Below are positions 1,763 through 42,489 of a stretch of 52,625 nucleotides of DNA, piece by piece. The DNA is from Bacteroidota bacterium (GTDB taxonomy: Bacteria > Bacteroidota > Bacteroidia > UBA8524), in contig WGMZ01000052.1 in assembly GCA_016124735.1 (NCBI GenBank), forward strand, positions 1 to 52,625, in the 5' to 3' direction. The notes under the pieces are model-generated. The model was not told the origin of the DNA. It saw nothing but the letters and a program-made list of their open reading frames with translations, and did no database searches. A program made the position numbers and the translations under genes. Each line of letters begins with the position of its first letter. The first letter of the stretch is position 1.

Positions 1763-1832
1763 TTTCTTGAATGCGTCGTCTGTAATGGGTTCAAAGCTTG
1801 AATAGCAAGATAGGGAAAAGTACGGAATAAAA

Positions 1833-2074
1833 GAGACGGTGGGACATTGGGATGTTGCGAGATTGAGACGAAAGCGGGAAATACTGTAGTAATGAGTACA
1901 AGAGACGTTGGGACATTGGGATGTTGCGACATGGAGACGAGAGCGGGAAATACTGCAGTAATGAGTACAAGAGACGATGAGACGTTGGGATGTTGCGACA
2001 TGGAGACGAGAGACGGTGAGACGGTGAGACGGTGAGACGAGAGCAGGAAGTACTGCAGTACTGAGTACTAAAGT
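1833..2074. repeat. 69-bp tandem repeat block (minisatellite-like)
   Basis: Units begin at 1833, 1902 and 1971, exactly 69 bases apart. Each starts GAGACG, continues GGGATGTTGCGA and ends in AGTAATGAGTACAA. The third unit is expanded internally by repeated GGTGAGAC hexa/octamers and finishes with AGTACTGAGTACTAAAGT (2057..2074), an 18-mer repeated exactly at 36680..36697. Units are nearly identical, which suggests recent slippage or gene-conversion-type growth. Confidence 0.85.
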
Positions 2075-4559: not shown

Positions 4560-5075
4560 GAGACGACAGGTTTCAGACGACAGATTCCAGAAGACAGACG
4601 CCAGACTACCGGTACCCGTAACCAGATGCCAGAACCCAAGACCAGATTTCCGATTACAAATGCTCAAGTCAGTTCGAGCCTGTCGAGAACTGCGGAGAAG
4701 AATCCAGTCGCCAGAACCCAAGACCAGATTTCCGATTACAAATGCTCAAGTCAGTTCGAGCCTGTCGAGAACTGCGGAGAAGAAACCAGTCGCCAGAATC
4801 CAAGACCAGATTTCCAATTACAAATGCTCAAGTCAGTTCGAGCCTGTCGAGAACCGCGGAGAAGAAACCATTCGCCAGAGTTCAGACTGCAGACGACAGA
4901 TTCCAGAAGACAGACGCCAGACTACCGGTACCCGTAACCAGATGCCAGAACCCAAGACCAGATTTCCGATTACAAATGCTCAAGTCAGTTCGAGCCTGTC
5001 GAGAACTGCGGAGAAGAAACCAGTCGCCAGAGTTCAGACTGCAGACGCCAGACACCGATACCCGATACACCTACT
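4560..5075. repeat. 82-bp tandem repeats with higher-order duplication
   Basis: Units starting CCAGAACCCAAGACCAGATT occur at 4629, 4711, 4793 (CCAGAATCC variant) and 4945, with 82-base spacing; each ends with a half-unit starting CCAGAG or the next copy. Every unit holds GTTCGAGCCTGTCGAGAAC, an inverted repeat able to form a hairpin. The leader at 4567..4628 (CAGACGACAGATTCCAGAAG and following) is copied at about 4882..4944, so the whole block was duplicated at two scales. Related CAGACGxCAGAC sequence recurs at 43557 and 50755. The stretch from 4528 to 5093 has no credible gene. Confidence 0.85.
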
Positions 5076-7922: not shown

Positions 7923-7975
7923 AATTTCTTCCTTAAAATAGAGCTTGGTCCGAAGACCGGATTGTCATTAAAAAA

Positions 7976-8363
7976 AGCAGAATCATAAGCCGGGTTCTGT
8001 TTCTCTTGGAACACGTTCCGCGATAGCCTGTCATTTATCTGGGACCTCCGTTGCCGAAAGCCTCCATCAACCTACCCACCTTACATCGGAACGAGCAGCT
8101 CCGCGGTGTTTCCACCGGTAAGGCCTATTTGGTCTTTCAACCCATGAGGTTTACCCTGCCAATTCCGTCGCCGGAAAAGCGGTGGGCTCTTACCCCGCCT
8201 TTTCACCCTTACCCCGCAGCAAAAGCTACAAGGCGGTTTGTTTTCTGTGGCACTGTCTGTATTCGCCGGATGACGAACCCTTCCCGTTAGGAAGCATGGC
8301 GCTCTTTGTTGCCCGGACTTTCCTCCCGTTCTGTTTCACACGAGCGACAAGCCGTTCTGCCTG
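7976..8363 (-). ncRNA. rnpB: RNase P RNA (class A)
   Basis: The minus strand shows hallmark RNase P RNA pieces in order: GGCAGAACGGCTTGTCGC at the 5' end, GGGAGGAAAGTCCGGGC (P4 5' strand region), the GTAAGGGTGAAAAGGCGG segment, AGAGCCCACCG, and near the 3' end GACAGGCTATCGCGG, then GAACCCGGCTTATGATTCTG. The end GCAGAA/TTCTGC can pair as P1, and a run of T follows (7975 down to 7970). The length of about 388 fits class A. It processes pre-tRNA 5' ends. The ends are estimated from P1 and the promoter. Confidence 0.95.
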
Positions 8364-8508: not shown

Positions 8509-9915
8509 ATGAGCCAAAATTTCGGAGCCTATATCCTCGATTCCATTCGAAGGCAATCGGATTCTGTCCTGCTTGCGGGGAAGGATTCGGATGATCATCC
8601 AAAATACTGGACAGGAGCCGAACTGGAAGCTGAAATACGTATCCGCGTTCAATCCATAAAAAGAAAACCCACGCAGGCCCTGATCCTCATTCCATTTGGA
8701 GAAGAACATCTGGTTTGGGTTCTGGCCATGATGATACGTGGAGTATCAGTAATCTATCTACCCAAAAAAGGCTTGTTTTGGCGCCTGTTATTCGGCAAAA
8801 GATTGACAATGGTAGTTCCTAAAAAAGGAAAATCGCTTCAGGGATTCATCCTTCAGATGCTTGGACATCGGGTAATGCGACTGAATCCATCGGCCGCAAA
8901 ATATCAGGAAGATGAACGGGCTGGTCAGCCGGCATTAATCAGCCACAGCTCCGGTACCGGCGGGAAGCCCAAGACAATCAGAAGAAGTCATGAGGTATTG
9001 ATGAGACAGCATGAAGCTTTGAAGAAAGCCTTTCCTCCTTTCGACGGACAAATAGATTATCCTTTGTTTCCAAATGTGCTGCTTCATAACCTTGCCTGCG
9101 GCATTAAAACTGTTTTACCCGATCTGAACTGGTCGGATTGGACAGAATTCTTTCCTGGACATTTATTGGATCAGATGGAAAAAGAGCAAGTATCCACCCT
9201 CACCGGTAATTTATTTTATTTCCTCAAGTTGGTAGGAACGGCGTTGAGTCGCGAGTATACACTAAACCATGTCAAAGCAGTTGGAATAGGAGGTTCAACC
9301 ATACCCGACTGGCTTCTCGACGATATGCAAAAGGTATTTCCCAAGGCTCAAATATTTGTCATCTACGGTTCCACCGAAGCAGAACCCATTACCCTGAGGG
9401 AATTCAAGCGACACCGCAATCCAATGCATGGTTATTGTGTGGGGAAACCTCATCCCGACATTGAATTGCGCATTCAAAAAATTGGAGAAATCGAGCAACA
9501 CGATGCCACCCAGGATTGGGGAGAAATAACAGTGAGCGGCCCTCACGTCATCTCGAAAAATAATGCCCCGCTTCAAACAGGCGACCTGGGATATCTTTTT
9601 GAAGATGAACTGTATTTGATTGGCCGCAAGGAAAATATAGGAGACTACATGGGCATTTACTCTTATCAAATAGAGCATTATCTCCGGGATCAAACCGACC
9701 TGGAAGATGTGGCAGTAATCATTGAAAATGAAGTCATTCGAATATTCTACGTATCGGACGAAAACGAAGACGGAGAAATTCATGCAGCCATAAAAAATGC
9801 ATTGGGAGAAGTACCCTGCGTCAGCAAAAGACTTTTTGAGTTACCCAAAGACGACAGACATCATTCTAAAACCATTTATAAAAAACTTTATGCAGACCAC
9901 ATTTCAAGAAATTGA
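8509..9915 (+). CDS. AMP-dependent ligase resembling OleC / fatty-acyl ligases
   Basis: This 468-residue adenylating enzyme has motif A3 SHSSGTGGKPKTIRRSHE (about 144-161), A5 IYGSTEAEP (about 285) and A7 TGDLGYLF followed by LIGRKENIG. A short C-terminal subdomain ends with HHSKTIYKKL, which supplies the usual lysine. The segment YCVGKPHPDIELRIQKI before the GEITVSGP strand resembles the OleC-type or long-chain fatty acid ligase branch more than acetyl-CoA synthetase. It probably activates a carboxylic acid, perhaps an acyl or beta-hydroxy-acyl chain, as the AMP ester; the substrate is unknown. The ATG at 8509 was chosen over TTG at 8500. It opens an operon and overlaps the next gene by 26 bases. 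Confidence 0.8.
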   Translation: MSQNFGAYILDSIRRQSDSVLLAGKDSDDHPKYWTGAELEAEIRIRVQSIKRKPTQALILIPFGEEHLVWVLAMMIRGVSVIYLPKKGLFWRLLFGKRLTMVVPKKGKSLQGFILQMLGHRVMRLNPSAAKYQEDERAGQPALISHSSGTGGKPKTIRRSHEVLMRQHEALKKAFPPFDGQIDYPLFPNVLLHNLACGIKTVLPDLNWSDWTEFFPGHLLDQMEKEQVSTLTGNLFYFLKLVGTALSREYTLNHVKAVGIGGSTIPDWLLDDMQKVFPKAQIFVIYGSTEAEPITLREFKRHRNPMHGYCVGKPHPDIELRIQKIGEIEQHDATQDWGEITVSGPHVISKNNAPLQTGDLGYLFEDELYLIGRKENIGDYMGIYSYQIEHYLRDQTDLEDVAVIIENEVIRIFYVSDENEDGEIHAAIKNALGEVPCVSKRLFELPKDDRHHSKTIYKKLYADHISRN

Positions 9916-10954
9916 CCTCCATATTATCCGGTATTCCCTCGTTTGGGAAGACCCCCATGTGCTGGCCGAAGCTCTTCAGGTGGATCAGTGTAAAAGAATT
10001 GCCTTAATCGGATCGGCGGGCTGCAATGTGCTGAACATGGCTTTGCATCCGGCAGAAGAAATTCATGCAATAGATATCAACCCCATCCAAAACCTCCTGC
10101 TGCGTCTAAAAAAGCACCTTTACCTCGAATACAACTGGACCGTGCTGGCAGATCTGATTTGCATTAACGGCAACGATGCATTGAAACAAAGATGCAGTGA
10201 ACTGAAAAGAGTACTTCCGGCCACCTTCCTTCCTTTGCTTCCTTCCATTGAAGAATATGGCCTCTTAGGCTGTGGCCGATTAGAAAAGTATATCCATGGG
10301 TTTATGCCTTATCATCCTCAATTCTCCTCCGTCATCCATCAGATTCTGGATGAAGGCCCCGGAAGAAAGCGGGAAGAATTGATTGAACTATTGCTTCAGG
10401 ATGCAGATTTTAAAAAATCCTTTGAGGATTACTACTCATCTGAAAACCTGAGCAAAGGCCGCGACCCAAAACTGCTGCGTTTTACCCATGGAGATGCGGG
10501 TGAAAAATTCTACCATCGCTTTTCCCGGTATATGCGCCAATGGGAGCAGGAATGGCCCTTTATCATGCATTTTTTCTTCAAAGGAATGAAGGACATATCG
10601 CCAGGGTTGCTGCCTGCTTGCTACCGCGAGGAAAATTTTATCAGGATGAAAGAGGCAGTTCAAAAAATACATATTGTCCATGCCGAGATGATAGAATATA
10701 TCAGCTCTGCCTATGCTCCAAAATACGATGCCATAGGGCTCAGCAATATATTCGAATATATCTCTCCGGCAGTCTTCCAGGAAGCTATGCAGGTGCTTCA
10801 TTCCTATATGAAGAAAGGAAGCAGGATGGTATTCTGGAACCTGCTGAATAGTCAGTACAGCCCCGATAATTTACTTCAGGAGCTTTCGAAATCTATGAGC
10901 AAGAAAGAATCCTGTTTTTATTTCGACAACGTTCAAATCTATAGCTATGATTGA
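9890..10954 (+). CDS. DUF3419 / BtaA-like 3-amino-3-carboxypropyl transferase
   Basis: This 354-residue protein has a Rossmann-type SAM-binding start, RIALIGSAGCNVLNMAL, followed by the DUF3419 signature IHAIDINPIQNLLLRLK, and later GLSNIFEYIS. BtaA enzymes transfer the 3-amino-3-carboxypropyl group of SAM to diacylglycerol, the first step of betaine lipid synthesis. The same chemistry on a lipid or other hydroxyl acceptor is the best guess here. No BtaB-like N-methyltransferase is present, so the product would not be the trimethyl betaine lipid unless that gene is elsewhere. The start at 9890 lies inside the previous gene, and its end overlaps the next start by 8 bases, so the three plus-strand genes are tightly coupled. 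Confidence 0.8.
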   Translation: MQTTFQEIDLHIIRYSLVWEDPHVLAEALQVDQCKRIALIGSAGCNVLNMALHPAEEIHAIDINPIQNLLLRLKKHLYLEYNWTVLADLICINGNDALKQRCSELKRVLPATFLPLLPSIEEYGLLGCGRLEKYIHGFMPYHPQFSSVIHQILDEGPGRKREELIELLLQDADFKKSFEDYYSSENLSKGRDPKLLRFTHGDAGEKFYHRFSRYMRQWEQEWPFIMHFFFKGMKDISPGLLPACYREENFIRMKEAVQKIHIVHAEMIEYISSAYAPKYDAIGLSNIFEYISPAVFQEAMQVLHSYMKKGSRMVFWNLLNSQYSPDNLLQELSKSMSKKESCFYFDNVQIYSYD

Positions 10955-12116
10955 TTCCATAGAATTTCCAGCTTCGCTGGACCAGCAAAAAGTAGAAGGA
11001 CTGCTTAAACAGAGGTTTCCTGATAAACGGGTTCGCATCTACAAAATTATCCCGATGGCCCTGGACAATTCCTCCAGTATTTTGGTTACCCTGACGGCGG
11101 CCAGTGGAGAAGATCGAATCGGGCACTTTCGTTATATCATTGGTTACGAGTTGGAAGGAGAGTTTCTCAGTGCAGATTTGGTAATCAAAGTAAAGCCTCA
11201 TGGTGCAGCAATCGCTGCAATGCTTGAAGGACTCGCTGCTGCCAATGGTCCGGAATTGGGAAATGCATACAAGACTGCCAGCGCATACACCGGGTTTTCA
11301 TACAGTCATGAGAAAGAGTTGTTTATTGATGAATGCCAGAAAGCAAACGATATATTTCCTGAAATCTGGGGAATCAGCCGGGATGAAGATGCGGGACTAT
11401 TCTATATCATGATGGAATATTTAGGTGAAGCCGACCTGATAAATTCAGTAATGATTCCCGAAAAATGGACCGACGGACCAGTTCGTCAGGCTTTAAAATC
11501 TGCAGCTTCCTGGCATGCCCGGAGTATGGATCTTCTAAAGCAGGACAATTTCCCTCATTGGAAAGATGAACGGTATTATGGATCAAGGGAAGAACTAATC
11601 CCCTTGTACCGTGCGCTTTGGCAGAATGCAGAATCAAAATTAACCGACCTGTTGGATCCTGAGGAATACCAGCTGATTCTGAAGGAACTGGAGAAGGCCG
11701 GTACCTTGAAAGATATTTATTCAGGATACCCTAAAGCCATCATTCACAACGACATGAACCCGAGGAATTGTTGCTTTCCACAGCGGGAGAACCGGAAAGA
11801 CTTTGTACTCTACGATTGGGAACTTTTCAATATCCACATGCCGGCCTACGATGCAGTGGAGTTCCTGGCCTTTGTATTGGATGAGGACCGTTACGCACAA
11901 CGGGAACATTACCTGAACTATTATTTGGATTGTCTTCAGGATGAGACCGGCGTACATGTGTTATTGGAAGACCGAAAAGACTTGTTCCGTGCCTTGCACC
12001 TCGACTTCTGTTATTTGCGCATTGGCATGTACCTGATGGCCCATTGCCTGAGCCCTTATCCATTCTTACCCCGCGTGGTAAGAAGTGCAATGGACGGAAT
12101 CCGGTGTTTTAGTTGA
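10947..12116 (+). CDS. APH/choline-kinase-like phosphotransferase
   Basis: This 389-residue protein has the kinase-like APH fold. An N-lobe includes VIKVKP (a candidate ATP-binding lysine), the hinge region is YIMMEYLGEAD, the Brenner motif is IIHNDMNPRN (about residues 264-273) and the metal-binding DWE motif is LYDWELFN, followed by PAYDAVEF. Such enzymes phosphorylate small hydroxylated or amino compounds (choline, homoserine, aminoglycosides, macrolides). In this operon a biosynthetic hydroxyl or amino-alcohol substrate is more likely than an antibiotic. Its stop overlaps the stop of the convergent GNAT gene by 8 bases, leaving no room for terminators between the two operons. Confidence 0.8.
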   Translation: MIDSIEFPASLDQQKVEGLLKQRFPDKRVRIYKIIPMALDNSSSILVTLTAASGEDRIGHFRYIIGYELEGEFLSADLVIKVKPHGAAIAAMLEGLAAANGPELGNAYKTASAYTGFSYSHEKELFIDECQKANDIFPEIWGISRDEDAGLFYIMMEYLGEADLINSVMIPEKWTDGPVRQALKSAASWHARSMDLLKQDNFPHWKDERYYGSREELIPLYRALWQNAESKLTDLLDPEEYQLILKELEKAGTLKDIYSGYPKAIIHNDMNPRNCCFPQRENRKDFVLYDWELFNIHMPAYDAVEFLAFVLDEDRYAQREHYLNYYLDCLQDETGVHVLLEDRKDLFRALHLDFCYLRIGMYLMAHCLSPYPFLPRVVRSAMDGIRCFS

Positions 12117-13155
12117 TTTCCTTCTCAAATAAGCCGTAAAAAACTTCCTCTTTTTTAATTCGGGCAGTAAAGGAATTGGAGATATTTCCCTCTCGCATCA
12201 AACAAAAAATAGCGTCTTCATAATAGGCCGGGAACTTTAACATTCCGTAGGCTGCCAGATAATGCATCAGCCTGCGGTTGCGGTAATCCGGATGAACACC
12301 CACTGTTTTGGCTAAAAAGGTCTTCCTCTTCAAATGGGGGTAGTCGCGTTCGAATTGAAAATTATCTTTAACCAGCTCAAGCTCATGATAATTTGGCAGG
12401 CACAGACTGATAGCTGCCCATTCTCCCGACTCTTTGTCACGGAAAATTACCGAAGTATGGGGACAAAGTCGTGCACCGAAATCTTCTCCGAATTCCATTT
12501 TAAACTCGTCGAAGGATATGGGAGAATAAGCCAGATTCTCAGAAAAAACTTTATGCAATAATTGATGAATCTCAATCAAATGCTCTTTCCAAAATGTAGC
12601 ATTCAGGGGAATAGCTTCAAATGGAATCTCAGAAAGTGTATCTAAATAAAGTTGTTGACGGGCATATACCACCTGCACGGTGCGGGCATCTATAAAATGG
12701 CTGGCATAACGCTGAACCAACTGAAAACCAGAAGCTATCAGCAAATCCTGATAATAATCCGGATTGGCCGGTTCGCCGGGAAATGAGGTCCACGATTCGC
12801 CCGCCTTTAAACGAATCCGATTTGAATGAAAGGTATTAAAATTGACGGGTCCCTGTATTTTTTCATAACCCAATTGTTTAGCGTCTTCCTCCAGGGCATG
12901 AAACAATTCCGCACTTGCCACCAGATCTAATTCTGCATCCCAATAACCAAAAAGAGCCTTATTTCCCGGCGGAAATATCCCGGTAAGAGCCGCCTTTTCA
13001 TTGAAATAGAATATTATCTGATCACCGACACCTCTTAGTTGACATAGTTCCTCCATTTTCTTTTTTTGATATGGAAGGACGTCGTTCGCATACACCTTTT
13101 GCATGGGGTTAAAATAAGCCGATGGAATACTGCCTTTGAAGGGATGCCTTGTCAT
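12109..13155 (-). CDS. GNAT-like acyltransferase
   Basis: This 348-residue protein has, near its C-terminus, TVGVHPDYRNRRLMHYL, the acyl-CoA-binding motif A of GNAT enzymes. Earlier it has a segment LGYEKIQGPVNFNTFHSN and FPGEPANPDYY of a kind found in large two-domain GNAT-like hypothetical proteins in lipid or natural-product loci. It probably acylates an amine or alcohol; donor and acceptor are unknown. It is the last gene of the minus-strand operon, with its ATG overlapping the upstream stop by 4 bases. The N-terminal half may be a second, degenerate GNAT fold. Confidence 0.65.
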   Translation of the reverse strand: MTRHPFKGSIPSAYFNPMQKVYANDVLPYQKKKMEELCQLRGVGDQIIFYFNEKAALTGIFPPGNKALFGYWDAELDLVASAELFHALEEDAKQLGYEKIQGPVNFNTFHSNRIRLKAGESWTSFPGEPANPDYYQDLLIASGFQLVQRYASHFIDARTVQVVYARQQLYLDTLSEIPFEAIPLNATFWKEHLIEIHQLLHKVFSENLAYSPISFDEFKMEFGEDFGARLCPHTSVIFRDKESGEWAAISLCLPNYHELELVKDNFQFERDYPHLKRKTFLAKTVGVHPDYRNRRLMHYLAAYGMLKFPAYYEDAIFCLMREGNISNSFTARIKKEEVFYGLFEKEIN

Positions 13156-15437
13156 GATTTTATTTTAATTCGACCATTGGGAATATCGATGTCCACTACC
13201 ATTCCCGATTTTAAGCACTTGCATAGACCGGGGATATTAATCATGCAAGGAATACCCATTTCCCTCAAAACCACCACCGAATGCGACAAAGACGAACCTT
13301 TTTCAATCAACACGGCTTTGCAACCCGGAAACAAAGGAACCCAGCCTGGGTCGGTTCTCGGAGCTACCAGTATCTTACCTTTTAAATTGGGCACAAGCTC
13401 TTCCATCTGATACACTAACACTTCGCCTTCGATTCTTTTTCCAATGATTCCCTCTCCTTTCAATTCGCCTTCCATAACAACTGACGAAGTACTTAGTCGC
13501 TGAGGAAGCACAATATGACCGGGCAGGTTCAGGTCCTTATAGGAGGCGAATTCGGCTTTTCTATCATCGATAAGCGGTTTCCAGTTTTGCGTCCAAAGGT
13601 CCTCCCGGGACAATTCCTCCCGGGTGAGGTAAAAGATATCACGCTCGGATTCCAACATTCCGGCAGTATTCAATCGGCTCCCATATTCTAAAAACAAGCG
13701 GCGGTACATACCAAACAGCCGTGTGCGATCCATTCGCAGTGCTTCCCTGCGCTCGATGGCATTTTTCAAACGATGGAAGCTTCGGTCCCTGGTTTCAACC
13801 AAACCCGTCTCTTTTGCGGTAAGATCGGAAAGATCATCTTCTACAAAATTTCTAAGGATATGATATACCCCATCTGGGTTTTGCCGGAGGGTTTTCGTTT
13901 CGAGTTTCAATTCTCCAACTACGCGGTCGCCATATTCCGAAATAAATGCCTCTACTTTTTTTGCTATGGCCGGGTAACTCTCCGCCATCCATTTATGAGT
14001 TGGTAAGTCTATTTGAAACTGCCTGAGCAGATCCGGAATCTGCCTGACCTCCCTGGCCAATTCCTGATAAAACAAAAGAGGTTTCATGGATTCTATTTGC
14101 ATATCCTGTGCAAGTAAGCGCTGCAAACGCTCCTCTCCGGCCTCCCCTTTCCATTTCCGCTTCATTCTCCCATTTAGCATCATGACCAAAAAGTCATTTA
14201 TAATCGGAGTTTCCCATTTCTGCAAAATCTCGTTATCGAGATGATTCCATTGCTGCTGCAATTCTTCCTGCGAAAATTGTTCTAAATCACATTTCCAGAA
14301 GCTCAGAAACTCATCACGAAAATGCTGTCTGAATTGCCCGGCATCTCGGTCAATGGTGCGAAAGGCGCGCAGAAGACGAATCATGGTTTGAATTAAAACC
14401 GGTAGCTTTATCAACCTTTGAAAGGTGTTTCTCTTGTCTTCTTCAACAAAATCAACTGGTTCCTGAACGCCCATCATGGTTTCCATGTCTTCCTTGTTCC
14501 GGCGAAAGGCTGGTAGGAGCAACAAGCCTCTGTACCAATTTTCAATATGGTAATAGATTCTTCCTTTGTATGAATAGAGGAGATGGTTCAGGACATCTTC
14601 ATACGCTTCAATCTGCCTTTCTTTTAACCGCATCAGGCGCATGGTCTGACGGTATACTGTTGCATAGGCATGTTTCGCAAAGGAAAAAGTTAAAGGCAAA
14701 CATATCCCCGCGTAACTCTCCTGGATATTGGAATTGTCGAGTACCACTCTCCGGGGAATCGGCTGGGTAACTGTACGCATCTGGTAGAAATAGGTTTGAC
14801 CCTCCTTCACCCCGAACTCAATATCCAAAGGCTTTTTCTTTTCGTCTTCCAACCGAATCACTTCGTCTTTTAAGGCATTCAGAAAAGAAAGCGTTTCTGT
14901 GTTTTTCGATATCCACTCCCCACTTCGTTTATTGAAATAATACTCTTTGCCCTGCGCACTCCCACTCAATAACTCGCTGTTGTCGCCTTTTACTACATGG
15001 ATTGCCACCTCATCCGGGTATTCCGGAAAGGTGCTGAACACCACTCCCGAGTAATCTGCTTCGATATAGTGCTGAATCAACACAGGAAATCGTTCAGGCA
15101 CAGGGAGCAGATTCTCCCGGAGATAGGCTTTTGCCCTTTCGGAATGATACGATTCGAATACCTTTTTCAGGGCCGGAAGAAATTCCCCCTTATTTTTTAC
15201 CGGTCCGGAGCTATCAAAAATACCTGCAAAGGAATGTTTGTCCCCATCTTCCATGGCCAGGTTCGACCGCACGATGAGCGGAAATTCGGGCAGCGGACTG
15301 TCATCCAGCATTTTCACTATGCTTTCATCTGTGAATCCCTCCAAACCAGGAATCACCCATTCCACAAAATCGGGGACCCGAGTTCCCAAATCTTTCAGGG
15401 CCTGCAATCCTTTCGCTTTAGCTCCTTCCACTTTCAT
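13152..15437 (-). CDS. PEP-utilising phosphotransferase-like enzyme (rifampin-phosphotransferase layout)
   Basis: This protein of 761 residues has three regions. An ATP-grasp PEP/pyruvate-binding domain (about 1-240) starts EGAKAKGLQALKDLGTRVP, has RSNLAMEDGDKHSFAGIF and ends DIEFGVKEGQTYFYQMRTV. A long helical middle (about 250-650) looks unlike PEP synthase. A C-terminal swivelling domain has PRTDPGWVPLF and GSSLSHSVVVLREMGIP, whose His is the candidate phospho-carrier. This domain order (ATP-binding, substrate-binding, His domain) is that of rifampin phosphotransferase, which uses ATP to phosphorylate a hydroxyl and releases AMP and Pi. The TIM-barrel of true PEP synthase/PPDK is missing. 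The substrate is unknown. It overlaps both neighbours by 4 bases. Confidence 0.78.
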   Translation of the reverse strand: MKVEGAKAKGLQALKDLGTRVPDFVEWVIPGLEGFTDESIVKMLDDSPLPEFPLIVRSNLAMEDGDKHSFAGIFDSSGPVKNKGEFLPALKKVFESYHSERAKAYLRENLLPVPERFPVLIQHYIEADYSGVVFSTFPEYPDEVAIHVVKGDNSELLSGSAQGKEYYFNKRSGEWISKNTETLSFLNALKDEVIRLEDEKKKPLDIEFGVKEGQTYFYQMRTVTQPIPRRVVLDNSNIQESYAGICLPLTFSFAKHAYATVYRQTMRLMRLKERQIEAYEDVLNHLLYSYKGRIYYHIENWYRGLLLLPAFRRNKEDMETMMGVQEPVDFVEEDKRNTFQRLIKLPVLIQTMIRLLRAFRTIDRDAGQFRQHFRDEFLSFWKCDLEQFSQEELQQQWNHLDNEILQKWETPIINDFLVMMLNGRMKRKWKGEAGEERLQRLLAQDMQIESMKPLLFYQELAREVRQIPDLLRQFQIDLPTHKWMAESYPAIAKKVEAFISEYGDRVVGELKLETKTLRQNPDGVYHILRNFVEDDLSDLTAKETGLVETRDRSFHRLKNAIERREALRMDRTRLFGMYRRLFLEYGSRLNTAGMLESERDIFYLTREELSREDLWTQNWKPLIDDRKAEFASYKDLNLPGHIVLPQRLSTSSVVMEGELKGEGIIGKRIEGEVLVYQMEELVPNLKGKILVAPRTDPGWVPLFPGCKAVLIEKGSSLSHSVVVLREMGIPCMINIPGLCKCLKSGMVVDIDIPNGRIKIKS

Positions 15438-16339
15438 AACATCAGGATCAAAAGCAGGTAATTAACAAGCATAACCAGCGAAACGGCATTTTCACCGCGG
15501 CGAAAGGGAATCATCTCCTGTTTTTGGAATGGAATCATATATACCAATGCTGCAATTCCAAATGCCAGCATCGTTACCAGATCGAGAAAAACCGGCAAAC
15601 TATAGCGGTGGAATAAGAGGATGGAGCCCAGAACATTCAACCAAAGAAGCGCCAGAATTCCGGTAATTGCGCCTTTTTCTCCCATCAACTTCGTGTAAGT
15701 TGGAATCCGTTTGGGCTCTTTATGAGGAGTAAAGCTCTTTCTGGCCATTTCAAACGCAAAGGCGGCAAAAAATGCGATCGATGCCAGAATCCATAGCCCG
15801 GCAGAATGTAATTCGCCCCCAGACAATCCCCAAAGCCACATTACTACCAGAGGCATGATGAGCGTATGACTAAGTGCATAAATAAACAATCGGGGTTCGA
15901 GCCAGGATTTAACAAAAAACTCATAGCGCATGAGCAGACTGAAGCCCAGGCAAATCAGCCAGAGGATTGCCGTGAACAATGAATTTTGGTAGCTCCAGTA
16001 TAGTTCAAAAAGAGCCCCGGGTAGGGCAAATAGCATGAGTTCTGAAATTTTTACTTCCCCCCTGACCACCAATCGTTCGGAATGAACTTCCCGATCAATC
16101 TTAAAATCTTTGATTTCATCCATGACCCGCAAACGAAAGAAAAAGGAGATACAGGCAAGCGCGGAGAATATCCACTGCCCGGAGCCCCACTGAAAAACGA
16201 TGTCTCTTTCCTGGTCACTCACCCGAAAAACAGTGAGCGTCAGAATGAGAAATAAAACCATGACTACTATAGGGAATCGCTGCTTGAAATAGGCGGGTAA
16301 CTTGTTCAGGCTCATAGTCAATGATAGAAAATTATCCAT
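15434..16339 (-). CDS. UbiA-family prenyltransferase-like membrane enzyme
   Basis: This 301-residue protein has about eight or nine hydrophobic segments. After the second it carries RVMDEIKDFKIDREVHSER (about 71-89), matching the first aspartate-rich motif of UbiA (DxxxDxxxD followed by R). The second conserved loop reads FEMARKSFTPHKEPKRIPTY, where the usual aspartates are largely replaced. UbiA enzymes move a prenyl or other polyprenyl-like group from a diphosphate onto an aromatic ring, a lipid or a sugar phosphate. It is the first gene of the minus-strand operon; M9 at 16315 is an alternative start because a TAATTTTC box overlaps the first codons. The product is not predictable. Confidence 0.72.
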   Translation of the reverse strand: MDNFLSLTMSLNKLPAYFKQRFPIVVMVLFLILTLTVFRVSDQERDIVFQWGSGQWIFSALACISFFFRLRVMDEIKDFKIDREVHSERLVVRGEVKISELMLFALPGALFELYWSYQNSLFTAILWLICLGFSLLMRYEFFVKSWLEPRLFIYALSHTLIMPLVVMWLWGLSGGELHSAGLWILASIAFFAAFAFEMARKSFTPHKEPKRIPTYTKLMGEKGAITGILALLWLNVLGSILLFHRYSLPVFLDLVTMLAFGIAALVYMIPFQKQEMIPFRRGENAVSLVMLVNYLLLILML

Positions 16340-16461
16340 CCTAAGCTATGGAAAATTGTCACATTCCTGTCAAATTCTCCAACAAAGGCGTTTTGAAAAA
16401 AAAATTCATCCGACGAAAACCAAAAGAAAAAAGCTACCGTATATGGCTTAAAACAATATTT

Positions 16462-16992
16462 ATGAAAAAGTTAGCTTTAAAATTACTCGTCCTTCCTCTC
16501 CTCACTGTTTTCACGTTGAGTTCCTGTAAAAAGAACGACGACATGCAAAACAGTCCTGCTATGAAAAGCAAAACCTTTATGTACGAATTCAATACCGGAC
16601 AAGCCGGTTCAGGAACTGCGTACAAAGGAAATCACGCCAACAGCCTCTCTGCTCAATTGAGACTGGAAGAGTTAAGCAGTGGCAAAACCAAAGTGACCGT
16701 TACCTTGATGAATACCATGGATGGTAAAAATTACCCGGTTCACTCGCACGACGCAGCAGATGCTGCCTCTACACCCAATGGTACTCCTTACAATGAAGTT
16801 CCCAATGCCGATGTGTTGGTAGGAATTGTAAAAGGGAATGGAGGAACAGCCATGTACAGTCAGGAATCAAGCATGAGTTTCGACGACCTGACCACCAAGT
16901 ATGCCGGTTATTTTGTAGTACACGACCCGACTCAGGCCATGTCTACCAAAGACTTAACCACCTTCCTGATTGTAGGATCCTTCGCTCGCTAA
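16462..16992 (+). CDS. Lipoprotein of unknown function
   Basis: The 176-residue product starts MKKLALKLLVLPLL and has a lipobox ending LSSC (C at about 23), so it is probably a membrane-anchored lipoprotein. The mature part has a MYEFNTGQAGSGTAYKG strand, VTLMNTMDGKNYPVHSHDA and VGIVKGNGGTAM. The alternation and the HSH motif recall CHRD or Cu/Zn-superoxide-dismutase-like beta sandwiches, but the match is too weak to name. ATG 16462 is preferred because it begins a clean signal peptide. It is divergent from the UbiA operon and ends at a strong terminator. Confidence 0.65.
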   Translation: MKKLALKLLVLPLLTVFTLSSCKKNDDMQNSPAMKSKTFMYEFNTGQAGSGTAYKGNHANSLSAQLRLEELSSGKTKVTVTLMNTMDGKNYPVHSHDAADAASTPNGTPYNEVPNADVLVGIVKGNGGTAMYSQESSMSFDDLTTKYAGYFVVHDPTQAMSTKDLTTFLIVGSFAR

Positions 16993-22769: not shown

Positions 22770-23545
22770 TGTTAAGCACGAAAGACTACCGGGTTCCTGT
22801 TGAAAATCCAGATGTGAAAGCCATCGGTAAGCGAATCTGAAACACAGGATTGATTATAGTCTCGCTCAAATTTTTAACGAGGTTGCAGGAATTGCGGGCT
22901 CGCGCATGTCGGAGACGCGGTTTGTTTGCGTCAAAATAAAACGCTTCGGTCTTCCGGACCTATCGCCCCTTATATGCCGTGTGCGAATGGCATTAATCCT
23001 TCCGGCACGGACTCCATAGAGAGCAACTATCTTTTATGCGACATACTTTTTATCCGCTTCCAATCCTCCGAAGAAGTCACTCACCCTTAACCAGAAGCTA
23101 CCCCAAAAAGAAAAGTACCCCGAAGAGGTGGACCATCCTTAACAGAAAAGTGTCCCCATACGCCACTAAGACCTCGTAGGGGTCGCCCATCTTTAACAGA
23201 AAAGTGTCCTCACACGCTACTAGGACCCCGTAGGGGTCCTTCCATCCTTAACAGAAAAGTTACCTCAAACGCCACTAAGACCCCGTAGGGGTCGCCCATC
23301 CTTAACGAAACTGCGATCTCAAAGCGGAAGCACCCCAGAGGGGTGCCCTAATCAATTCACGACGATATCAAGCAGCAGGCGTAAACTCCACTGAAAGGAA
23401 GTCATCGCTCATCTCTATGACTGAGGCGTATGATTCGCGGTCCGAAAGGCCTGAGCGCCCAGAATCGTACCATTCAGCCCCCATATTTTCAAGTCTTTCT
23501 CTCATCCACTCATCCTCTGATCCTCCCTTCCACTTATCGTCTTTC
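22770..23545. other. Long intergenic region with hairpin-bearing repeats
   Basis: No gene is supported in this 0.8-kb space. The first 290 bases hold mixed, degenerate sequence with the hairpin-like GCCGTGTGCGAATGGCA. From about 23085 a 54-bp tandem block begins (listed separately). The part from 23360 to 23545 is low-complexity T/C-rich sequence before the DinB promoter. Confidence 0.6.
23085..23355. repeat. 54-bp tandem repeats carrying a GACCCC-GTA-GGGGTC hairpin
   Basis: The phrase CCTTAACAGAAAAGT (or CTTTAACAG) recurs at 23137, 23191, 23246 and 23300, i.e. every 54-55 bases. Between copies lies GACC(C/T)CGTAGGGGTC, a short perfect or one-mismatch inverted repeat with 3-base loop. Edge units are degenerate: 23085-23136 and 23330-23352 show related CCCC..GGGG forms. 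Unit parts are contiguous with no unique spacers, so it is not a CRISPR. Confidence 0.8.
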
Positions 23546-41106: not shown

Positions 41107-42489
41107 ATGAGTCAGATGAAAAAGACCAATCCATTGGCCAAACCAATGGAAGCCATCAGTGGTTTTAGCAAGCTGAGCAAAGAAGGTAAGGTGGAATGGA
41201 TTTGCAGTCATTTTGAGAATCCGGAAGCCGCTTATCAAACCCTCAGCACCTATTGGAATGAGGATGCCGCCTTGCAAAAGCTGCATGATGAATTTATTGA
41301 AAATACCATCACCAATTATTATCTCCCATTCGGGGTGGCACCCAATTTCCTGATTGATGGGAAAATGTATACGGTTCCGATGGCTATTGAGGAAAGCTCG
41401 GTAGTTGCTGCCGCTGCCAAAGCAGCAAATTTTTGGTTGAGTCGCGGTGGATTTAAAACGCATATCATCTCTACCACGAAAATTGGACATGTGCATTTTG
41501 CCTACTGGGGCGATTATGAGAAACTTCTCAACTTTTTCAATAGTCACATCAAAGAGCTTTTGTACAAAGAAAGTGAAGAGCTGACCAAGAACATGCGCAA
41601 TCGTGGCGGTGGTATTAAGTCCATTCAACTCATCAACAAAAACTACGAAGAGCCAAATTACTATCAAATTATGGCCACCTTCGAAACCTGCGACTCGATG
41701 GGCGCCAATTTTATCAATTCCTGCCTGGAACAATTCTCCCGCACTTTCCGCAGGGAAATCGAAAACAGCGATCTTTTTAGCGAAAGAGAAAAGGAATTGC
41801 AGGTCATTATGTGCATCCTTTCCAACTACACGCCTGAATGCCTAGTCAGAGCCGAAGTAAGCTGTCCGGTAGAAATGCTGGAAGACGAAAAAAAGGAATA
41901 CACCTGGCAGGAATTTGTCGACAAGTTTGAAAAGGCCGTGCACATCGCCCGCATTGAACCCTACCGCGCCACCACGCACAATAAGGGTGTGATGAACGGA
42001 ATTGATTCCGTGGTAATTGCCACCGGAAATGATTTTCGCGCAGTGGAAGCCTGCGCACATACCTATGCATCGCGTGGCGGACAGTACCGCAGTTTAACAG
42101 ATGTGAAGGTGGAAAATGGCGTCTTTTCATTTTGGCTGGATATCCCCCTATCTCTGGGTACAGTCGGAGGAATTACCTCATTGCATCCGATGGTGAAATT
42201 TGCCATCAATCTGCTAGACAATCCGAATGCTGAAAGATTGATGGGAATTACAGCAGTTGTCGGATTGGCTCAAAACTTCTCTGCGCTTCGCTCGTTGGTT
42301 ACCAGCGGTATTCAAAAAGGACACATGAAAATGCACCTGTTGAATATTCTTAATCAGCTGGAGGCCACAGATGAAGAAAGAAAAGTCATTGTAAAATATT
42401 TTGAGACAGATACGGTCTCACATTCCAAAGTTGTCGAATTGTTTTGCGAGATTCGGGGCATCAAAAGCCTGGAGGAACTAAAAAAATGA
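41107..42489 (+). CDS. mvaA: Hydroxymethylglutaryl-CoA reductase, class II-like
   Basis: The 460-residue protein makes mevalonate from HMG-CoA in the mevalonate route. It has ENTITNYYLPFGVAPNFLI, the Glu-bearing MAIEESSVVAAAAKAANFW, DSMGANFINSCLE (a variant of DxMGxN) and SLGTVGGITSLHPMVKFAI. The class II form is suggested by length and motif spacing. The start at 41107 follows the fni stop by one base. Its stop overlaps the next start (ATGA). Confidence 0.92.
   Translation: MSQMKKTNPLAKPMEAISGFSKLSKEGKVEWICSHFENPEAAYQTLSTYWNEDAALQKLHDEFIENTITNYYLPFGVAPNFLIDGKMYTVPMAIEESSVVAAAAKAANFWLSRGGFKTHIISTTKIGHVHFAYWGDYEKLLNFFNSHIKELLYKESEELTKNMRNRGGGIKSIQLINKNYEEPNYYQIMATFETCDSMGANFINSCLEQFSRTFRREIENSDLFSEREKELQVIMCILSNYTPECLVRAEVSCPVEMLEDEKKEYTWQEFVDKFEKAVHIARIEPYRATTHNKGVMNGIDSVVIATGNDFRAVEACAHTYASRGGQYRSLTDVKVENGVFSFWLDIPLSLGTVGGITSLHPMVKFAINLLDNPNAERLMGITAVVGLAQNFSALRSLVTSGIQKGHMKMHLLNILNQLEATDEERKVIVKYFETDTVSHSKVVELFCEIRGIKSLEELKK

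Follow-up and report, generated by a model that had tools for sequence, protein, structure and literature searches.

A stretch of 52,625 nucleotides from a Bacteroidota bacterium (contig WGMZ01000052.1), hereafter the window, carries six tightly packed genes at positions 8509–16339. An initial annotation had described them as two convergent, coupled operons encoding a biosynthetic system that it did not recognise, which raises two questions: do the six genes belong together, and what molecule might they produce?

The locus and its enzymes

All the predicted open reading frames are present (Table 1). With position 9890 as start of the DUF3419 gene, neighbours on the same strand overlap by 4 to 26 bases: the ligase and DUF3419 genes by 26 bp (119 bp if the first ATG at 9797 is used), the DUF3419 and kinase genes by 8 bp, and the GNAT and PEP genes, like the PEP and UbiA genes, by 4 bp, while the kinase and GNAT genes meet tail to tail with an overlap of 8 bp. 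The start at 9890 is the more probable one, because the Gramella and Pedobacter relatives (L033–L035) begin at that position. As had been noted, the six genes are not interrupted by any regulator or transporter gene. A scan for promoters and terminators revealed nothing in excess of shuffled sequences. The G+C content is practically the same in the cluster (0.448) and in the remainder of the window (0.446), so that composition shows no sign of recent transfer.

Table 1. Genes of the cluster in the window, with their coordinates, strand and supporting matches.
Product	Position	Strand	Evidence
AMP-forming acyl ligase	8509..9915	+	AMP-binding 8.3e-19; P-loop SSGTGGKPK, C-terminal RHxSK
DUF3419/BtaA-like transferase	9890..10954 (likely start; first ATG 9797)	+	DUF3419 2.9e-29
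APH/EcKL-like kinase	10947..12116	+	EcKL 5.2e-8, APH 1e-7; HNDMNPRN, DWE motifs
Tandem GNAT acyltransferase	12109..13155	-	Predicted structure, pLDDT 93.7
PEP-synthase/rifampin-phosphotransferase-type enzyme	13152..15437	-	PPDK_N 3e-20, PEP-utilizers 4e-16
UbiA-superfamily membrane transferase	15434..16339	-	Prenyltransferase model 1e-12; motif 1 kept, motif 2 replaced

The enzyme families proposed by the initial annotation were all recovered. The ligase, described there as OleC-like, is closest to the PRK09274/OleC-like group of fatty-acid ligases (NF006754, 6.8e-47, below the cut-off of this model). For the second gene, described as BtaA-like, the DUF3419 match is above the Pfam cut-off; the predicted structure of its product (pLDDT 90.9) combines a Rossmann fold of the SAM type with a large inserted helical region, and a fold search against the PDB gave weak matches with SAM-methyltransferases (best 3e-3). 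As this protein shares only 21 to 45% identity with other DUF3419 proteins, its putative function in aminocarboxypropyl transfer is assigned by family resemblance. The third gene is APH-like, as expected, and a search of the PDB with its sequence returned no relative.

A sequence search with the GNAT gene gave no family match, and its assignment comes from the predicted structure, whose top match in the PDB is a glucosamine N-acetyltransferase (6.8e-12); other tandem GNATs also match, with mycothiol synthase and the lipid-aminoacylating MprF lower among the matches and FemX also weaker. The next enzyme, announced as rifampin-phosphotransferase-like, is composed of an ATP-grasp domain, a substrate region and a swivelling His domain (GSSLSH). 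Its profile is closest to PDB entries 5hv2 and 5fbs (3e-97), which we take to be rifampin phosphotransferases, deposited as PEP synthase. It has the ATP-grasp and swivelling-His domains of these entries, arranged alike, but its middle substrate region (profile positions 275–460) has no match to them, and its gene is part of a biosynthetic operon. With NF041857, the model specific to rifamycin, the score is 99 for a cut-off of 999, which would speak against rifamycin as the substrate. The closer NCBIfam matches include the prodigiosin ligases PigC and RedH.

The UbiA gene has no match in a Pfam search of its own sequence, and its family profile matches digeranylgeranylglyceryl phosphate (DGGGP) synthase (4e-5) as well as chlorophyll synthase, in agreement with the earlier assignment. 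With the UbiA superfamily (DGGGP synthase, chlorophyll synthase, EboC) it has in common a weak homology and the first motif, DExKDxxxD in the window, in which R..D..KD...D is invariant in 62 of 62 members; one His is also kept in all 62. In contrast, the second Asp-rich motif, DxxxD, is replaced by ExxRK......E in every one of the 62 members, so that diphosphate-dependent prenyl transfer is no safe assumption.

A conserved unit with variable architecture

The six genes form one conserved unit. A scan of 84,980 species genomes yielded 246 relatives of the DUF3419 protein, the best 80 of which were examined using profiles derived from the cluster, and 50 of these loci, all from other species, have at least 4.5 kb on each side. 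In this set drawn from the best 80 of 246, the GNAT and the ligase are each found in 48 of 50 loci, the PEP enzyme in 47, the kinase in 47 (45, plus two in which it is fused to an HMG-CoA-reductase-like protein, HMGR) and the UbiA-like gene in 46 (42, plus four of half length). The loci span Bacteroidota, Pseudomonadota, Lentisphaerota, Melainabacteria, Bacillota, Saccharimonadota and Myxococcota, with a patchy distribution. Many come from metagenome-assembled genomes, so that individual taxon names may be wrong; they are firmer for the isolates, namely Pedobacter, Sphingobacterium, Dyadobacter, Gramella, Catonella morbi, Lentisphaerae WC36 and Roseinatronobacter. The initial annotation had reasoned that joint recurrence of the six families in diverse genomes would support a single system and that separation of its two halves would speak against it; the halves are together in almost every genome examined, usually in one operon.

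Because the loci had been picked by likeness to the DUF3419 proteins of the cluster, 247 genomes sampled evenly across the phylum were examined as well. A strong PEP match occurs in six of them, the genome of the window included, and in all six a DUF3419 gene lies on the same contig within 2.2 kb (hypergeometric p ~1e-10 for the co-presence of these two genes alone). Two genomes of the sample (G198 and G260) have a strong DUF3419 match without a PEP gene, and a further group, mainly from one family, carries a distant DUF3419 subfamily; no other cluster gene was found in the two loci of this subfamily that were inspected (L137 and L138). Among 60 relative genomes, DUF3419 is present in three (G001, G027 and G050), and strong PEP matches (E < 1e-60) are found in exactly these three, near DUF3419.

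In the common arrangement the genes lie on one strand in the order HMGR, UbiA, PEP, DUF3419, CTP/phytol-kinase-like, GNAT, (START), ligase. The two convergent operons of the initial annotation are real but represent a minority form, kept in five genomes: the window and four others at 34–45% DUF3419 identity, a divergence at which the shared layout is not due to chance. The clade of the window in the tree is small and divergent, comprising a genus mate (G001), Gramella sp. AN32 and two Pedobacter, and is characterised by the convergent layout, a cluster without HMGR, and an APH kinase that is absent from Pedobacter. In the latter (L034 and L035) there is no identifiable kinase, and a genome search with the kinase of the window found no separate one. 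Given that the window has no HMGR in its cluster and Pedobacter no identifiable kinase, at least two steps appear to be dispensable or supplied elsewhere. Other arrangements include that of Bacillota, with the order APH, GNAT, (amidotransferase-like), short UbiA, PEP, DUF3419, ligase, ligase, and an alphaproteobacterial plasmid (Roseinatronobacter) that bears the operon with generic annotation only.

Kinases, HMG-CoA reductase and accessory genes

The kinase slot is occupied by three unrelated families: phytol-kinase/CTP-transferase-like proteins, APH/EcKL kinases and, in L136, a diacylglycerol kinase (DAGK_cat/YegS lipid kinase, 9e-28). The phytol-kinase-like gene, present in most loci, is so named from sequence reading, its best Pfam match being CTP_transf_1 at only 0.22, and it never occurs in the same locus as an APH-type kinase. 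This mutual exclusion, together with the lipid kinase in the slot of L136, makes a lipid hydroxyl the likeliest target of the kinase. HMGR and APH form a single polypeptide in L042 and L076 (Thermincola and Myxococcales contigs, two phyla), the kinase half of which is homologous to the kinase of the window, and they persist as adjacent remnants in L030, which suggests that the substrate of the kinase is the product of HMGR.

Like class I HMG-CoA reductases, the cluster HMGR keeps the catalytic Glu, Lys, Asp and His. It differs from them by its fusion to the kinase in L042 and L076, by its presence in MEP-pathway genomes, and by an acidic residue (Glu or Asp, 46 of 49 sequences) at the position aligned to the substrate-pocket Ser; we take this Ser to be Ser684 of the human enzyme, in contact with the HMG carboxylate. 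Seven genomes with a cluster HMGR possess DXR, an enzyme of the MEP pathway, and at most weak matches to diphosphomevalonate decarboxylase, G063 being the only cluster-HMGR genome with both enzymes. The pocket substitution and the occurrence of DXR without the decarboxylase make it unlikely that the cluster HMGR produces mevalonate, and its role as a mevalonate supply was rejected for the MEP genomes. The model for HMG-CoA synthase, PF08540, gave no usable information, as it found no match even where the genome has mevalonate decarboxylase. In the window, a different HMGR is encoded at 41263–42336, and the mevalonate decarboxylase of this genome is found elsewhere.

Several further genes accompany the cluster. 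MMPL/HAE3 exporters adjoin it in Gramella, which belongs to the clade of the window, and in the myxococcal contig L076, thus in two phyla; the two proteins are alike at 3e-133, compared with 1e-30 to 1e-51 for the other MMPLs of these genomes. The L136 variant contains a phosphatidylserine-decarboxylase-like gene (1e-49) that would fit the decarboxylation of an aminocarboxypropyl lipid, and a START/polyketide-cyclase-type lipid-binding gene is present in some loci. Each of the MMPL, START and phosphatidylserine-decarboxylase genes is found in a minority of loci, and no further gene family recurs widely beside the cluster in the tally of locus neighbours.

Proposed pathway and alternatives

We propose, with a probability of about 0.58, that the six genes encode one pathway for an amphiphile: a lipid, either exported or kept in the membrane, to which SAM contributes an aminocarboxypropyl unit. 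From the gene association, the folds, the motifs named above, the alternative kinases, the HMGR-kinase fusion and the exporter link, we infer the following substrates, order of steps and product. The AMP ligase would activate a (hydroxy) fatty acid, whose acyl thioester would be reduced to an alcohol by the HMGR-type enzyme in most genomes, the alcohol presumably having another source in the variant of the window. The kinase would then phosphorylate the lipid alcohol, and the UbiA-like membrane enzyme would move the activated chain onto an acceptor. The PEP-type enzyme may activate a hydroxyl or an acid with a phosphoryl group from ATP, releasing AMP and Pi; its position and that of UbiA are the least certain in this order. 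The DUF3419 enzyme would attach a 3-amino-3-carboxypropyl group, the amine of which would be acylated by the tandem GNAT, and the START and MMPL proteins, where present, would move the product. The initial annotation had imagined a lipid-like product made of an acyl chain, a SAM-derived amino acid and a prenyl group: its lipid nature is supported by the context, whereas the prenyl group is doubtful in view of the replaced UbiA motif. A more detailed version, which we advance tentatively, is a new lipid class spread horizontally through several phyla, with an alcohol made by a repurposed HMGR, one of three interchangeable kinases, joining by a UbiA enzyme of altered chemistry and an RPH-type phosphotransferase, an N-acylated aminocarboxypropyl cap and dedicated MMPL export.

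That six to eight enzymes stay linked in one pathway over several phyla implies a class of molecule not yet described. Undescribed biosynthetic clusters are not rare; this one stands out by its breadth, its modular exchanges and the changes in HMGR and UbiA. The enzymes raise questions of their own, concerning an HMGR outside mevalonate synthesis, a UbiA enzyme without the second metal motif and a rifampin-phosphotransferase-type enzyme in a biosynthetic role. The occurrence of the cluster in culturable strains (Pedobacter, Sphingobacterium, Dyadobacter, Gramella and Catonella morbi ATCC 51271) opens the molecule to direct search.

No description of the cluster or of the pathway was found in the literature search, in which most subscription journals were outside coverage, so that absence is no proof. 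The cluster does not correspond to the known betaine-lipid, ebo, olefin or mevalonate pathways. The ebo operon, which occurs in Bacteroidetes as well, likewise has six genes, one of them for a UbiA-like enzyme, and has spread horizontally; its gene set includes a sugar-phosphate cyclase, hydrolases and a xylose-isomerase-like protein (PMC5133447). It was rejected, as its eboA-F set has the UbiA superfamily alone in common with our cluster; the EboC model gives 1.4e-5 on the UbiA protein of L052, far below its cut-off. The olefin pathway was likewise discarded, the OleC models scoring 73 and 51 for cut-offs of 900 and 850, and no family of the OleA, OleB or OleD partners recurs beside the cluster, window neighbours included. 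A role in anti-phage defence was also rejected, PADLOC giving only a match of the kinase at 0.0078.

The product could instead be a soluble specialised metabolite, such as an antibiotic, a siderophore-like compound or a signal molecule, with a small hydrophobic part. This is possible, if rather less probable: the patchy distribution and the plasmid-borne copy are typical of specialised metabolism, PigC and RedH are among the closer model matches of the PEP enzyme, and a P450 gene comes directly after the cluster in G027 and three loci of Crocinitomix. To our knowledge no cluster gene is unique to lipid chemistry, and small-molecule antibiotics are likewise products of ligases, GNATs and RPH-type enzymes. 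On the other hand, the membrane UbiA and CTP-transferase-like enzymes, the alternative lipid kinase, the MMPL exporters and the phosphatidylserine-decarboxylase-like gene suggest lipid chemistry, and no other family recurs widely beside the cluster.

In an isoprenoid pathway, the kinase and UbiA would salvage a tocopherol-, quinone- or archaeol-like prenyl alcohol, or attach it, and HMGR would supply mevalonate. Such a pathway would account for the profile matches of UbiA and for the frequent phytol-kinase-like gene. It is unlikely given the altered HMGR pocket, the DXR-bearing genomes mostly without diphosphomevalonate decarboxylase, and the replaced UbiA motif; moreover, no prenyl synthase family recurs beside the cluster.

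We regard as very unlikely a variant of the BtaA/BtaB betaine-lipid pathway, in which the DUF3419 enzyme would make diacylglyceryl-homoserine and the other genes would be accessory. The cluster shares with that pathway the DUF3419/BtaA family and presumably aminocarboxypropyl transfer from SAM, and the DUF3419 protein of G198, fused to a phospholipid-methyltransferase domain and encoded beside a diacylglycerol kinase, illustrates the family in lipid contexts. However, BtaB is missing: no methyltransferase family recurs next to DUF3419 across the loci, and none is among the window neighbours. The cluster also adds a ligase, a kinase, a UbiA enzyme, a PEP enzyme and a GNAT, often with HMGR. We know of no need of BtaA for a ligase, UbiA, PEP enzyme or kinase, and these are nearly invariant here.

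Finally, the opposite strands in the window might suggest two unrelated operons converging by accident, an idea refuted by dozens of genomes in which a single operon holds these genes and by the recurrence of the convergent layout itself.

Features flanking the cluster and elsewhere in the window

The cluster is bordered upstream, close to the ligase gene, by a class A RNase P RNA, to which we assign no part in it, and at its other end by a small lipoprotein-like gene. A gene of the same kind likewise adjoins UbiA in the genus mate (L027, 2002-2526), and none was found next to UbiA in the wider clade. The window also carries a housekeeping HMG-CoA reductase of quite a different type from the cluster HMGR of the commoner one-operon form. 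The window genome has a mevalonate decarboxylase, and a search of it for DXR found none. Among three tandem repeats, the 82-bp array is traversed by long ORFs in two frames.

Features of the window outside the cluster
Feature	Position	Strand	Detail
Tandem repeat	1831-2012		unit 69 bp
Tandem repeat	4620-4879		unit 82 bp
RNase P RNA class A	7970-8363	-	267 bits
Small lipoprotein-like gene	16348-16992	+	directly adjoins UbiA
Tandem repeat	23117-23310		unit 54 bp
Housekeeping HMG-CoA reductase	41263-42336	+

DUF3419 in other gene contexts

In G198, a DUF3419-positive genome lacking the PEP gene, the locus L134 (7500-12870) holds DUF3419 and a phospholipid-methyltransferase domain as a single fusion, with genes for DAG kinase, GNAT and PLP decarboxylase beside it; this is a DUF3419 lipid operon different from the cluster. 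On a Deefgea piscis plasmid (L133, 7246-9475), where the DUF3419 gene is flanked by an iron-containing redox enzyme and the adenosylmethionine decarboxylase speD, the context is a further separate one. A distant DUF3419 subfamily occurs in genomes G300, G147 and others, mainly in one family of the phylum (f65), where it is common; the other cluster genes were absent at the two loci examined.

Partial sets and fusions

The genus mate carries an additional UbiA-PEP-HMGR set without DUF3419 (L030, contig G001:C16, 5264-10291), in which the HMGR-kinase reading frame is broken. The Thermincola HMGR-kinase fusion possesses an additional N-terminal stretch of ~130 residues (L042, 7248-7640) that had no match in Pfam and that, judged by eye, looks like a candidate PilZ-type domain.
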